A stretch of DNA of 64,000 bases. Origin: Halomonas stenophila. Lineage in GTDB: Bacteria; Pseudomonadota; Gammaproteobacteria; Pseudomonadales; Halomonadaceae. This document shows positions 44,531 to 47,329 of this stretch, piece after piece. The translations under genes were made by a program, and so were the position numbers. The notes beneath the pieces are model-generated. The model made no database searches and was not told the DNA's origin. It was given only the letters and a program-made list of their open reading frames with translations. The DNA lies in assembly GCF_014192275.1 (NCBI RefSeq), contig NZ_JACHXR010000001.1, positions 186,001 through 250,000 of the forward strand, in the 5' to 3' direction. Each line of letters starts with the position of its first letter. The stretch's first letter is position 1.

Positions 44531-44932
44531 CTACTCGCCGGCGTGGAAATCGATGGCCACCGAATTGATGCAATAGCGCTGGCCGGTGGTCTCCTGTGGC
44601 CCGTCGGGGAAGACGTGGCCGAGGTGGGCATTGCAGCGGGCACAGATGATCTCGGTGCGCTGCATGCCATGGCTGCCGTCGGGCTGTTGCTCGACGCAGC
44701 CCGAGGAGAGGGGGCGGTCGAAACTCGGCCAGCCGCAGCCGGCATCGAACTTGTGCTCGTTCTCGAACAGCGGTGCATGGCAACACACGCAGTGGTAGAT
44801 GCCGTGTTCCTCGGTGACCTGGTAGTCACCGGAGAAGGGCCGCTCGGTGCCCTTCTCCCGGGTCACGTGGTATTGCTCGGGGGTGAGCTGTTCGCGCCAC
44901 TCGGCGTCGCTCTTCTCGATCTTCCTTCGCAT
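44531..44932 (-). CDS. msrB: Peptide-methionine (R)-S-oxide reductase MsrB
   Basis: 133 residues. Zinc-binding pairs CVCC and CARC, the [10 protein letters not shown] loop and the catalytic cysteine in [12 protein letters not shown]. It reduces R-methionine sulfoxide in proteins; cytoplasmic, no signal peptide. GGAGAC lies before the ATG at 44932. Divergent from the tRNA operon. Confidence 0.94.
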
Positions 44933-45051
44933 GGCCTGTCTCCTCGTCACGGTGGAGCCTGCACCCTCATTGTGACATCCAGGGTAGGCATTTTTTCCAC
45001 CCCGCTTTGCCAACGCTCAACGGCCGGTGAGCCCCTCCCGGAGGGGCGGGC

Positions 45052-45080
45052 TTGACACCTTCGGGGGCGGTGCGTAATAT
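45052..45080 (+). promoter_or_regulatory. Promoter of the tRNA-Glu/Gly operon
   Basis: TTGACA (45052-45057), 17-bp spacer, TAATAT (45075-45080), followed by GCGCGCC, a GC-rich discriminator typical of stringently controlled stable-RNA promoters. The first tRNA starts 30 bp downstream. Confidence 0.85.
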
Positions 45081-45110
45081 GCGCGCCATCTCGACGAGGC
45101 GAGCAACTGT

Positions 45111-45186
45111 GTCCCATTCGTCTAGTGGTCCAGGACACCGCCCTTTCACGGCGGGAACAGGGGTTCGAACCCCCTATGGGACGCCA
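45111..45186 (+). tRNA. tRNA-Glu (TTC), copy 1
   Basis: 76 bases, encoded CCA (GCCA end). The anticodon loop CTTTCAC gives TTC; the cloverleaf has a 7-bp acceptor GTCCCAT/ATGGGAC and T-loop GGTTCGAACC. First gene of three Glu-Gly pairs. Confidence 0.95.
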
Positions 45187-45210
45187 CTCGACTCATCAAG
45201 ATACCGGAGT

Positions 45211-45285
45211 GCGGGAATAGCTCAGTGGTAGAGCATCGCCTTGCCAAGGCGAGGGTCGCGAGTTCGAATCTCGTTTCCCGCTCCA
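45211..45285 (+). tRNA. tRNA-Gly (GCC), copy 1
   Basis: 75 bases, encoded CCA. Acceptor GCGGGAA/TTCCCGC, anticodon loop TTGCCAA (GCC), T-arm CGAGTTCGAATCTCG. The 3' half of this gene is the parent of the repeats at 45760-46197. Confidence 0.95.
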
Positions 45286-45289
45286 ATGC

Positions 45290-45365
45290 GTCCCATTCGT
45301 CTAGTGGTCCAGGACACCGCCCTTTCACGGCGGGAACAGGGGTTCGAACCCCCTATGGGACGCCA
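45290..45365 (+). tRNA. tRNA-Glu (TTC), copy 2
   Basis: Identical to copy 1; begins 4 bp after the first tRNA-Gly. Confidence 0.95.
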
Positions 45366-45394
45366 CCTTCCGGTGGTTTGACAATGCGAGACCT

Positions 45395-45469
45395 GCGGGA
45401 ATAGCTCAGTGGTAGAGCATCGCCTTGCCAAGGCGAGGGTCGCGAGTTCGAATCTCGTTTCCCGCTCCA
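45395..45469 (+). tRNA. tRNA-Gly (GCC), copy 2
   Basis: Identical to copy 1. Confidence 0.95.
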
Positions 45470-45499
45470 ACCTTCCTTCGGGAGGCTGGTCAGGAGTCA

Positions 45500-45574
45500 A
45501 GGGCCTGCGAGGGTCGCGAGCTAGTACACCAGTCCGCTGGAGTGCCAGCCCAGTCGAATCACGCTGCCGCTCCA
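45500..45574 (+). pseudogene. Degenerate tRNA-Gly 3' part
   Basis: After the second tRNA-Gly the sequence CGAGGGTCGCGAG recurs (tRNA-Gly variable/T-arm region). An inserted stretch containing GCCAGCCCAG follows, and then a mutated T-arm and acceptor end (TCGAATCACGCTGCCGCTCCA). It has no 5' half. It matches the plan of the repeats further right. Confidence 0.6.
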
Positions 45575-45578
45575 ATGC

Positions 45579-45654
45579 GTCCCATTCGTCTAGTGGCCTA
45601 GGACACCGCCCTTTCACGGCGGGAACAGGGGTTCGAACCCCCTATGGGACGCCA
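45579..45654 (+). tRNA. tRNA-Glu (TTC), copy 3
   Basis: Same as the other copies except in the D-loop, GGCCTAGG instead of GGTCCAGG. Encoded CCA. Confidence 0.95.
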
Positions 45655-45684
45655 CTTCGCACTGTCGACATCACCACATGTAGA

Positions 45685-45759
45685 GCGGGAATAGCTCAGT
45701 GGTAGAGCATCGCCTTGCCAAGGCGAGGGTCGCGAGTTCGAATCTCGTTTCCCGCTCCA
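45685..45759 (+). tRNA. tRNA-Gly (GCC), copy 3
   Basis: Identical to the other tRNA-Gly copies; its CCA end directly abuts the repeat array. Confidence 0.95.
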
Positions 45760-46197
45760 TTCTGTTTTTTGATGTACTCTTGATGGCCAAGGCTCGCGTC
45801 ACGAGCCGGAGCGCCGGTCCGATCGATCTCGTTTCCCGCTCCATTCTCTTATGTAGCAATGATTGACAAGCCAAGGCTCGGGTCACGATCCGGTGTGCCG
45901 GCCCAGTCGAATCTCGTTTCCCGCTCCATTCTGTTTTTTGATGTACTCTTGATGGCCAAGGCTCGCGTCACGAGCCGGAGCGCCGGTCCGATCGATCTCG
46001 TTTCCCGCTCCATTCTGTTTTTTTGATGTACTCTTGATGGCCAAGGCTCGCGTCACGAGCCGGGGTGCCGGCCCAGTCGAATCTCGTTTCCCGCTCCATT
46101 CTCTTATGTAGCAATGATCGACAAGCCAAGGCTCGGGTCACGATCCGGAGTGCCGGTCCGGTGGAAGGCCGCCCCATCGATCTCGTTTCCCGTTCCA
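45760..46197 (+). repeat. Five tandem ~85-bp repeats derived from the tRNA-Gly 3' half
   Basis: Units at 45760-45843 (type A), 45844-45928 (B), 45929-46012 (A, identical to the first), 46013-46098 (A-like, hybrid end) and 46099-46197 (B-like, longer). Each ends with about 20 bases of tRNA-Gly 3' end (ATCTCGTTTCCCGCTCCA; the last unit has GTTCCA). Each also carries GCCAAGGC, matching the tRNA anticodon arm, then GTCACGA, and an inserted mini-hairpin such as CCGG-AGCG-CCGG. Type A starts TTCTGTTTTTTGATG, type B TTCTCTTATGTAGC. No open reading frame of interest. No obvious terminator separates the tRNAs from the array. Confidence 0.92.
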
Positions 46198-46372
46198 CTC
46201 CTGTCTCTCTTTTCGGCTTCTCCGGTCGCATCGGCGATGCGCTCTGCCTCCGCTCGGTGTCGTCGCCGTGCGCCATCGTCCGCTCGTGGCGCCTGCCAAC
46301 TTGAACCGATGACGATATGCCCCCATGTTGTGGGGCTTCGACGACATTCACCCAGCTTCCACAGGATCGCTC

Positions 46373-47329
46373 ATGGCCGAACCGGCGCTGTCCATTCGTG
46401 GCCTGACCAAGGTCTATGGCAATGGCTTCCATGCCCTCAAGGGGATCGATCTCGATGTCGCCCGGGGCGACTTCTACGCCCTGCTGGGCCCCAATGGGGC
46501 GGGAAAGTCGACCACCCTGGGCGTGGTCTGCTCCCTGGTGCAAAAGACCGCCGGCAAGGTCTCGATCTTCGGTATCGATATCGACACCGACTTCGCCCGC
46601 GCCAAGTACCACCTCGGCGTGGTGCCCCAGGAGTTCAACTTCAACCAGTTCGAGAAGGTCATCGACATCATCATGGCCCAGGCCGGTTACTACGGCATGT
46701 CGCGTCGCGAGGCGCTGCCGCGGGCCGAGCAGCTGCTCCGCGACCTGGGCCTGTGGGACAAGCGCAACGGCAGCGCGCGGATGCTCTCCGGCGGCATGAA
46801 GCGCCGGCTGATGATCGCCCGGGCGCTGATCCACCGCCCGAAACTGCTGATCCTCGACGAGCCCACCGCCGGGGTCGACATCGAACTCAGGCGCAGCATG
46901 TGGGAGTACATGCGCCGCATCAACCGCGAGGAGGGCACCACCATCATCCTCACCACCCACTACCTCGAGGAAGCCGAGAGCCTGTGCCGCCACGTCGGCA
47001 TCATCAATCACGGCAAGATCATCCGTGACACCAGCGTCCGGGAGTTGCTCGCCGAACTAAATACCGAGACCTTCCTGCTCGACCTGGCCCATCCGGTCGA
47101 GGCGCCTCCCGAGGTGGCGGGCTTCGAGGTCAGGCAGGTCGACGATGCCCAGCTGGCGGTGGTGATCCACCGCGGCCAGCGCCTCAACGACGTCTTCGAG
47201 AGCCTGGGCGAGCAGGGCATCGAGGTGATGTCGATGCGCAACCGCGCCAACCGCCTCGAGGAGATGTTCGTCTCCATGGTCGAAGGCAGCCAGGGCGCTC
47301 TGGACCAGAACCAGGAGGTTCGCGCATGA
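46373..47329 (+). CDS. yadG: ABC transporter ATP-binding protein YadG
   Basis: 318 residues. Walker A GPNGAGKST (about 41-49), Q-loop VVPQEFNFN, signature LSGGMKRRLMIARAL, Walker B LLILDEPTAGVD and the switch TTHYLEEAE. The sequence matches E. coli YadG along its length, including the C-terminal MRNRANRLEEMFVSMV. With YadH it forms an ABC-2 type exporter of unknown substrate. Start chosen at ATG 46373; the upstream in-frame ATG at 46325 would add an unusual leader. It overlaps yadH by 4 bp. Confidence 0.92.
   Translation: MAEPALSIRGLTKVYGNGFHALKGIDLDVARGDFYALLGPNGAGKSTTLGVVCSLVQKTAGKVSIFGIDIDTDFARAKYHLGVVPQEFNFNQFEKVIDIIMAQAGYYGMSRREALPRAEQLLRDLGLWDKRNGSARMLSGGMKRRLMIARALIHRPKLLILDEPTAGVDIELRRSMWEYMRRINREEGTTIILTTHYLEEAESLCRHVGIINHGKIIRDTSVRELLAELNTETFLLDLAHPVEAPPEVAGFEVRQVDDAQLAVVIHRGQRLNDVFESLGEQGIEVMSMRNRANRLEEMFVSMVEGSQGALDQNQEVRA

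Follow-up and report, generated by a model that had tools for sequence, protein, structure and literature searches.

The window, a stretch of 64,000 nucleotides from Halomonas stenophila (contig NZ_JACHXR010000001.1, positions 186,001 to 250,000 of the forward strand), carries a cluster of six tRNA genes; behind its third tRNA-Gly(GCC) gene we found five tandem units of 84–99 nt spanning 45760–46197. The features of the locus are as follows.

45052–45080, plus strand: promoter-like TTGACA-17-TAATAT, upstream of the first tRNA-Glu gene (consensus scan)
45111–45759, plus strand: host operon, three tRNA-Glu(TTC)/tRNA-Gly(GCC) pairs (ARAGORN; Rfam tRNA)
45470–45575, plus strand: decayed unit in the spacer between Gly2 and Glu3, with two tandem hairpins at 45521–45536 and 45537–45553
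45760–45843, plus strand: unit 1, type A, 84 nt; T-loop module at 45806–45822
45844–45928, plus strand: unit 2, type B, 85 nt; T-loop module at 45890–45906
45929–46012, plus strand: unit 3, type A, 84 nt; T-loop module at 45975–45991
46013–46098, plus strand: unit 4, mosaic (5′ part of A, 3′ part of B), 86 nt; T-loop module at 46060–46076
46099–46197, plus strand: unit 5, 5′ part of B, 99 nt; double module at 46145–46161 and 46162–46176; one mismatch in the tail

A preliminary description of this DNA had started the array at 45500; the array proper begins at 45760. The five tandem units of alternating types that it had listed were confirmed, with types assigned by eye and unit 4 recognized as a mosaic. 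Units 1 and 3 are 99% identical across a 113-nt repeat; units 2 and 5 have (by eye) a common 5′ part different from that of type A. The units had been said to end in the 3′ end of tRNA-Gly, and indeed the last 18 nt of the gene recur exactly in four of the five, with a single mismatch in the fifth. The degenerate unit noted within the tRNA cluster is also there, in the spacer that separates Gly2 from Glu3. An Rfam scan of 44900–46400 returned only the six tRNAs above gathering score and no family inside the array.

Aligned to the tRNA, each unit is a 3′ part of tRNA-Gly devoid of the 5′ acceptor strand. What is left of the anticodon arm (GCCAAGG or similar) is followed by the variable loop (GGGTC or similar), the 5′ strand of the T-stem (e.g. 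GCGAG), an insert of 17 nt where the T-loop begins, the sequence TCGAATC and the tRNA tail through CCA; the unit tails correspond to the last 18–22 nt of tRNA-Gly. Both the anticodon-arm sequence and the inserted mini-hairpin of the preliminary description are present; however, only the 3′ side of the arm is left, and the hairpin sits in the T-loop. Unit length ranges from 69 to 138 nt with a median of 85 (140 units).

The insert, hereafter the module, has the consensus CYGG-NNYG-CCRG-YCCRR: a hairpin of 4 bp, capped by a tetraloop and followed by a 5-nt linker. The tetraloop is able to pair with the linker, which is itself closed by a lone pair; the fold resembles what we take to be a short pseudoknot with a lone-pair triloop. 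Among 92 distinct units, 75 had a single module, 15 had a double one and two had a 4-nt linker, ACCG; where the module is double, GG is often found at the end of the second tetraloop, with CCC in the linker in those cases. The rest of the unit could be drawn as a minihelix with the T-stem below the module and the GGG of the variable loop paired to CCC of the tail; 89.5% of cells are paired in this drawing. The outer GGG/CCC helix showed no covariation (46 units), and the T-stem is imperfect (87% of cells paired), as 20 of 142 units set GTGAG, GTGAT or ATGAG against CTCCT. In free folding the drawn minihelix was reached by only some of eight units.

An array confined to this genome was named in the preliminary description as an outcome that would speak against it. 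With a covariance model of the units at a threshold of E 1e-9 (the tRNA itself scores near 1e-8), we found units in 168 of the 254 family genomes with a completeness of at least 90%, representing 14 of 24 genera. As relatives carry the same units, the array is not a product of chance; as 86 of the 254 genomes have no unit at E 1e-9, the units are dispensable. Of 194 genomes sampled from the order, 10 matched, five of them from three other families. In a sample of the class, the module pattern matched two of 369 genomes, both from the window's own family; thus, within this sample, no genome from beyond the order showed the tRNA-Gly form.

A scan for one exact form in one genome per species (84,980 species) gave 60 copies in 49 stretches. 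The genera were Halomonas, Vreelandella, Billgrantia, Litchfieldella, Salinicola, Chromohalobacter, Modicisalibacter and Bisbaumannia, as well as Alcanivorax, Alloalcanivorax, Thalassolituus, Oceanobacter, Saccharospirillum and Aliikangiella, with one more record labelled Pseudomonadota only; three species of Alloalcanivorax are among the carriers. The repeats recur, then, across many halophilic and marine relatives. The nearest upstream tRNA was tRNA-Gly(GCC) in 58 of the 60 copies, the other two being at the edge of a stretch with the upstream side out of view; the pattern contained the Gly tail, and the scan would therefore have missed copies ending in any other tail. We also collected 142 distinct units from 83 loci, some of them overlapping; all lie downstream of tRNA-Gly(GCC), in a collection that kept only strands with a tRNA-Gly(GCC) gene. 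Units occur in operons of two types, Glu-Gly and Gly-Cys-Leu. A literature search found no paper on Halomonas with tRNA-Gly repeats, T-loop insertions or pseudoknots; in a dRNA-seq paper on Alcanivorax dieselolei (PMC9788540), which names the data set CRA008652 for strain B-5, the term tRNA-Gly is absent from the main text.

Pairing inside the module was assessed in a set defined by the flanks only, with the 17 module bases left free (32 distinct modules, of 17 nt only, double and short ones excluded). The pair 37-46, between loop base 3 and linker base 4, was Watson–Crick in 32 of 32 modules (22 C-G, nine T-A, one G-C); the lone pair 43-47, between the first and the last linker base, in 30 of 32 (the others being one T-G and one C-A); and the hairpin pair 32-41 in 31 of 32, all of these being counts that kinship among the units inflates. 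For each of the three pairs, none of 5000 shuffles equalled the observed count. As 37-46 is paired in every module of this set and the lone pair in all except two, the data indicate that a fold of pseudoknot type has been conserved, as opposed to a scar left by chance. The same three pairs had the top covariation scores among the 75 distinct single-module units, a set preselected for hairpin pairing but not for 43-47 or 37-46. At 37-46, T-A was seen next to relatives with C-G, both in other families and in several of the family's own genera.

The first set of units came from 59 places selected for a paired hairpin; after seven were dropped (two false, two overlapping registers of one double hairpin and three decayed), the remainder collapsed to 46 distinct units. 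The second hairpin pair is U-A in 24 of these and C-G in 22. Cells changed on both sides numbered 53, as compared with 17.8 in shuffles and no more than 10 in slid versions; the preselected hairpin accounts for 25 of them, and the other 28 lie outside it. G-U pairs were nearly absent. Among 568 hairpin cells, where the search expression limited the letters to pyrimidine/purine patterns, 566 were Watson–Crick, none G-U and two A-C; loop–linker cells were Watson–Crick in 244 of 244 cases; and the 122 lone-pair cells comprised 119 Watson–Crick, one G-U and two A-C. So few G-U pairs mean less wobble than expected of an RNA helix, and a constraint at DNA level is possible; the exceptions are too few for a comparison of G-U with A-C to discriminate between RNA and DNA constraint. 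Exceptional modules had the 4-nt linker ACCG (four matches: G030, G194, G245 and G247), a broken hairpin pair (G214) or a C-A lone pair (G217).

The tRNA genes and the array share one strand, and the array is downstream of the promoter-like site at 45052–45080; the consensus scan of 44900–46500 revealed no other such site (one found, 0.3 expected). The six-tRNA cluster would be read as one transcript, of which the units would form trailer or spacer sequence. Terminator-like sites in the region of the window numbered zero, with 1.8 expected. Elsewhere, locus L061 has terminator-like hairpins after the unit and one also before it (three found, 1.8 expected), and L108 has one after its units (one found, 1.2 expected); these counts are not above chance, and only the positions fit. 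The terminator scans of L064 and L095 missed hairpins visible by eye after the units; we think that the scan extends the stem into the T tract. In the 12 nt that follow each CCA, A+T makes up 59%, versus 38% in the rest (140 units), a bias that a cleavage site would permit. The release of several small RNAs, considered in the preliminary description, would agree with the layout: cuts after each CCA would give tRNA-like RNAs of ∼70–100 nt, which would fold as a mimic of the top half of tRNA: an acceptor/T-like minihelix with a built-in elbow.

Some spacers hold no unit and leave 3–4 nt between the tRNA and the next gene; others hold long rows. In L118 (Aliikangiella marina) there are seven units of about 107 nt each. 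In L166 we saw a row of at least eight units of 72 nt, with the T-loop intact and no module; judged by its sequence, this row is simply the 3′ part of the tRNA and its trailer, duplicated in tandem. Among 142 units, 75 have CTCGT in the tail together with CTCGT in the tRNA, 49 have CTCCT together with CTCCT, one shows a swap and 17 are otherwise changed; thus, unit tails change together with the tRNA tail between lineages. The L166 row and the concerted tails support unequal recombination, one of the origins offered in the preliminary description, as the process by which units increase in number and remain similar. Given tandem rows and concerted tails, duplication and recombination across the common tail could therefore explain the origin, number and likeness of the units; for the pairs kept in the module they offer no explanation. 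Units would arise by tandem duplication of a tRNA 3′ part plus trailer, and recombination across the common tail would multiply, remove and homogenize them.

Repeats of this general kind are known as tRNA-linked repeats (TLRs). They are found in tRNA or rRNA operons, and their last 18–19 bp repeat the 3′ end of the gene just upstream (Egan and Landy 1978 and Rudd 1999, as cited in PMC8144298, seen in extract); E. coli has 22 of them at ten loci, one to five per locus (PMC8144298). The array has the sequence features of this definition: it follows the tRNA-Gly gene of a six-tRNA cluster, four of its five tails are identical to the gene over 18 nt, and it comprises five copies plus a decayed one; elsewhere, copy number reaches seven (L118) or, in units without the module, at least eight (L166). 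With a probability of about 0.7 we consider the repeats to be TLRs behind tRNA-Gly(GCC) that have been duplicated and homogenized in their tails, are transcribed together with the operon and are probably cleaved behind each CCA.

Copies of tRNA tails were encountered at other places as well. We checked 58 tRNA gene contexts in the window's genome for a repeat of the gene's own tail within 450 nt. Behind tRNA-Met(CAT) on contig C19 (L215, L226) there are three tandem 132-nt repeats, a second TLR locus of this genome; each has a terminator-like hairpin (by eye), a 3′ part with altered anticodon arm and an exact 18-nt tail. Behind tRNA-Leu(CAA) on contig C12 (L221) a single copy of the 3′ end, ending 370 nt downstream, has an intact T-arm and similarity continuing beyond CCA; it looks like an integration scar. 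In L064 a copy of the tRNA-Glu tail, in the orientation of the units, lies between tRNA-Glu (1144–1219) and tRNA-Gly (1419–1494); with its long multi-hairpin insert it is closer to the E. coli repeats than to the Halomonas module. In family f6 (L061, L062 and L073), near full-length copies of tRNA-Gly, with a changed anticodon loop and extra variable-loop sequence, stand next to the true gene, and L129 (Saccharospirillum sp. MSK14-1) reads like L062. Further copies behind tRNA-Gly in L068 and L099 end in CCCGCTCCA, have a different insert and are followed by terminator-like hairpins. In L162 (genome G032) an integrase gene directly behind the tRNA-Leu of a Gly-Cys-Leu operon points to an island there.

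One could argue that such repeats are neutral debris of recombination: a duplicated tRNA 3′ part propagated by slippage over the 18-nt tail, with nothing under selection. Copy number varies widely, unit-free spacers occur (e.g. ATGC in L001 and L008), near-identical and mosaic units are seen, tails track the tRNA as gene conversion would make them do, and 86 of 254 genomes are without units at the threshold. However, three covarying pairs kept in nearly all modules across several families would be unexpected in neutral sequence, as would the changes from C-G to T-A and G-C at the loop–linker pair 37-46; template-switch repair could maintain the hairpin but not the loop–linker pair. We consider this explanation unlikely. 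Even less weight is given by us to an antisense role like that of E. coli 3′ETS-leuZ, where the trailer would pair with another sRNA. E. coli tRNA trailers can serve as sRNA sponges (PMC8144298, extract), and some units are found in the equivalent Gly-Cys-Leu operon (L009, L011); on the other hand, the conserved part of the unit is the folded module, and the 5′ parts vary between units and species.

The preliminary description had also offered scars of repeated integration, the tails then being attachment sites, or decoys, of tyrosine integrases of the ICEclc kind. The repeated tail is in fact the gene stretch targeted by ICEclc, for which the last 18 bp of tRNA-Gly(GCC) genes serve as the integration site (PMC6563109, extract). 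Nevertheless, no integrase was seen (by eye) beside an array among those listed for 41 genomes; the only listed integrase near a tRNA-Gly, that of L162, adjoins tRNA-Leu; the scar-like tRNA-Leu(CAA) copy keeps its T-arm and matches beyond CCA, unlike the units; and an attachment site has no need of a T-loop module, let alone one that keeps compensatory pairs. Integration scars are not favoured, and we regard them as very unlikely. Presence and absence with exact joins, the occurrence in both Glu-Gly and Gly-Cys-Leu operons, and the near absence of G-U in the module could all be accommodated by a small selfish DNA element that is aimed at tRNA-Gly tails and moves through the module folded as single-stranded DNA. 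No copy was located away from tRNA-Gly, though (58 of 60 are downstream of tRNA-Gly(GCC) and two are out of view, for a pattern that had the Gly tail), and the module pattern without the Gly tail matched only the array in the window's genome; we can give such an element scant credence.

Returning to repeats transcribed with their tRNA operon and cut after each CCA, one could speculate about what the RNA does. The released RNA may act in trans by occupying a protein that handles the tRNA end or elbow, or an RNA chaperone; this is the least certain step of the scheme. Our preferred guess is that a top-half mimic occupies a tRNA-handling protein. More broadly, and tentatively enough that we would sooner expect it to fail than to hold, TLRs may extend more widely through the Gammaproteobacteria, as a class of tRNA 3′ parts whose loops have been expanded. 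In the Gly form a compact module (hairpin plus lone-pair triloop, with two loop–linker pairs) would replace the missing D-loop, and the operon would make both tRNA-Gly and a self-folding top-half mimic that binds a tRNA-handling protein. If true, the free level of that protein would be tied to tRNA transcription.

TLRs have been known since 1978, and with the Gly set the class can be compared broadly, across many genomes and across species with and without units, by means of a defined module of structure and testable base pairs. The units also represent a tRNA-derived element under structural constraint, located in spacers without an Rfam entry.

Among known systems, the ICEclc site coincides with the unit tails in being the same 18-bp gene 3′ end (compared by position, not by core letters, with the account in the extract of PMC6563109); the units differ from it by their conserved T-loop module, and no integrase adjoins the arrays among those listed. 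3′ETS-leuZ is likewise an RNA of a tRNA operon trailer, and its Gly-Cys-Leu operon type is one that bears some of the units, but we found no tRNA-tail repeat in E. coli glyW-cysT-leuZ.

The likeness to the E. coli tyrT region drawn in the preliminary description holds in part. Membership in the TLR class is common to both, and the tyrT repeats, the source of RtT RNA, are tandem repeats ending in a tRNA 3′ end; the array does not belong to the RtT family itself, however, as the best score for RF00391 in the window's genome was 15.6 bits, away from the array, against a cut-off of 45. In control searches RF00391 matched in four of 14 genomes, including E. coli, with one of the four (which one is not named) above the cut-off. 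An early claim of function for the tyrT repeat was retracted (PMC8144298, extract).

We compared the units by eye with 13 E. coli repeats from four K-12 loci; four further K-12 loci had no repeats. Both groups are located in tRNA operons, take an 18-nt tail from the gene upstream, stand in tandem in one to five copies and have hairpins before the tail (by eye). The array differs by its position behind tRNA-Gly, its units being of a kind that measures 69–138 nt, and by an insert that is a 17-nt hairpin-plus-linker module; this module is absent from the 13 E. coli repeats, which have other hairpins instead. The notion that the E. coli repeats are T-loop insertions as well is one formed by eye: eight of the 13 have five T-stem pairs, but 50% of shuffles equal this.

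By the account given in PMC8144298 (extract), TLRs had no known function until evidence appeared in 2021 for three of them in rRNA operons, rrA, rrB and rrF, which are processed and bind CsrA and Hfq. These three lie behind 5S rRNA, measure 173 nt, are transcribed and have the two named partners; the Gly array, in contrast, is known from sequence only. They resemble it in being of the TLR class, with a 3′ part that repeats the end of the upstream stable RNA, and the hairpins of L061 recall their two-terminator layout. The array fits into this little-understood class as a tRNA-Gly form, equipped with a small folded module the pairs of which have been kept in evolution.
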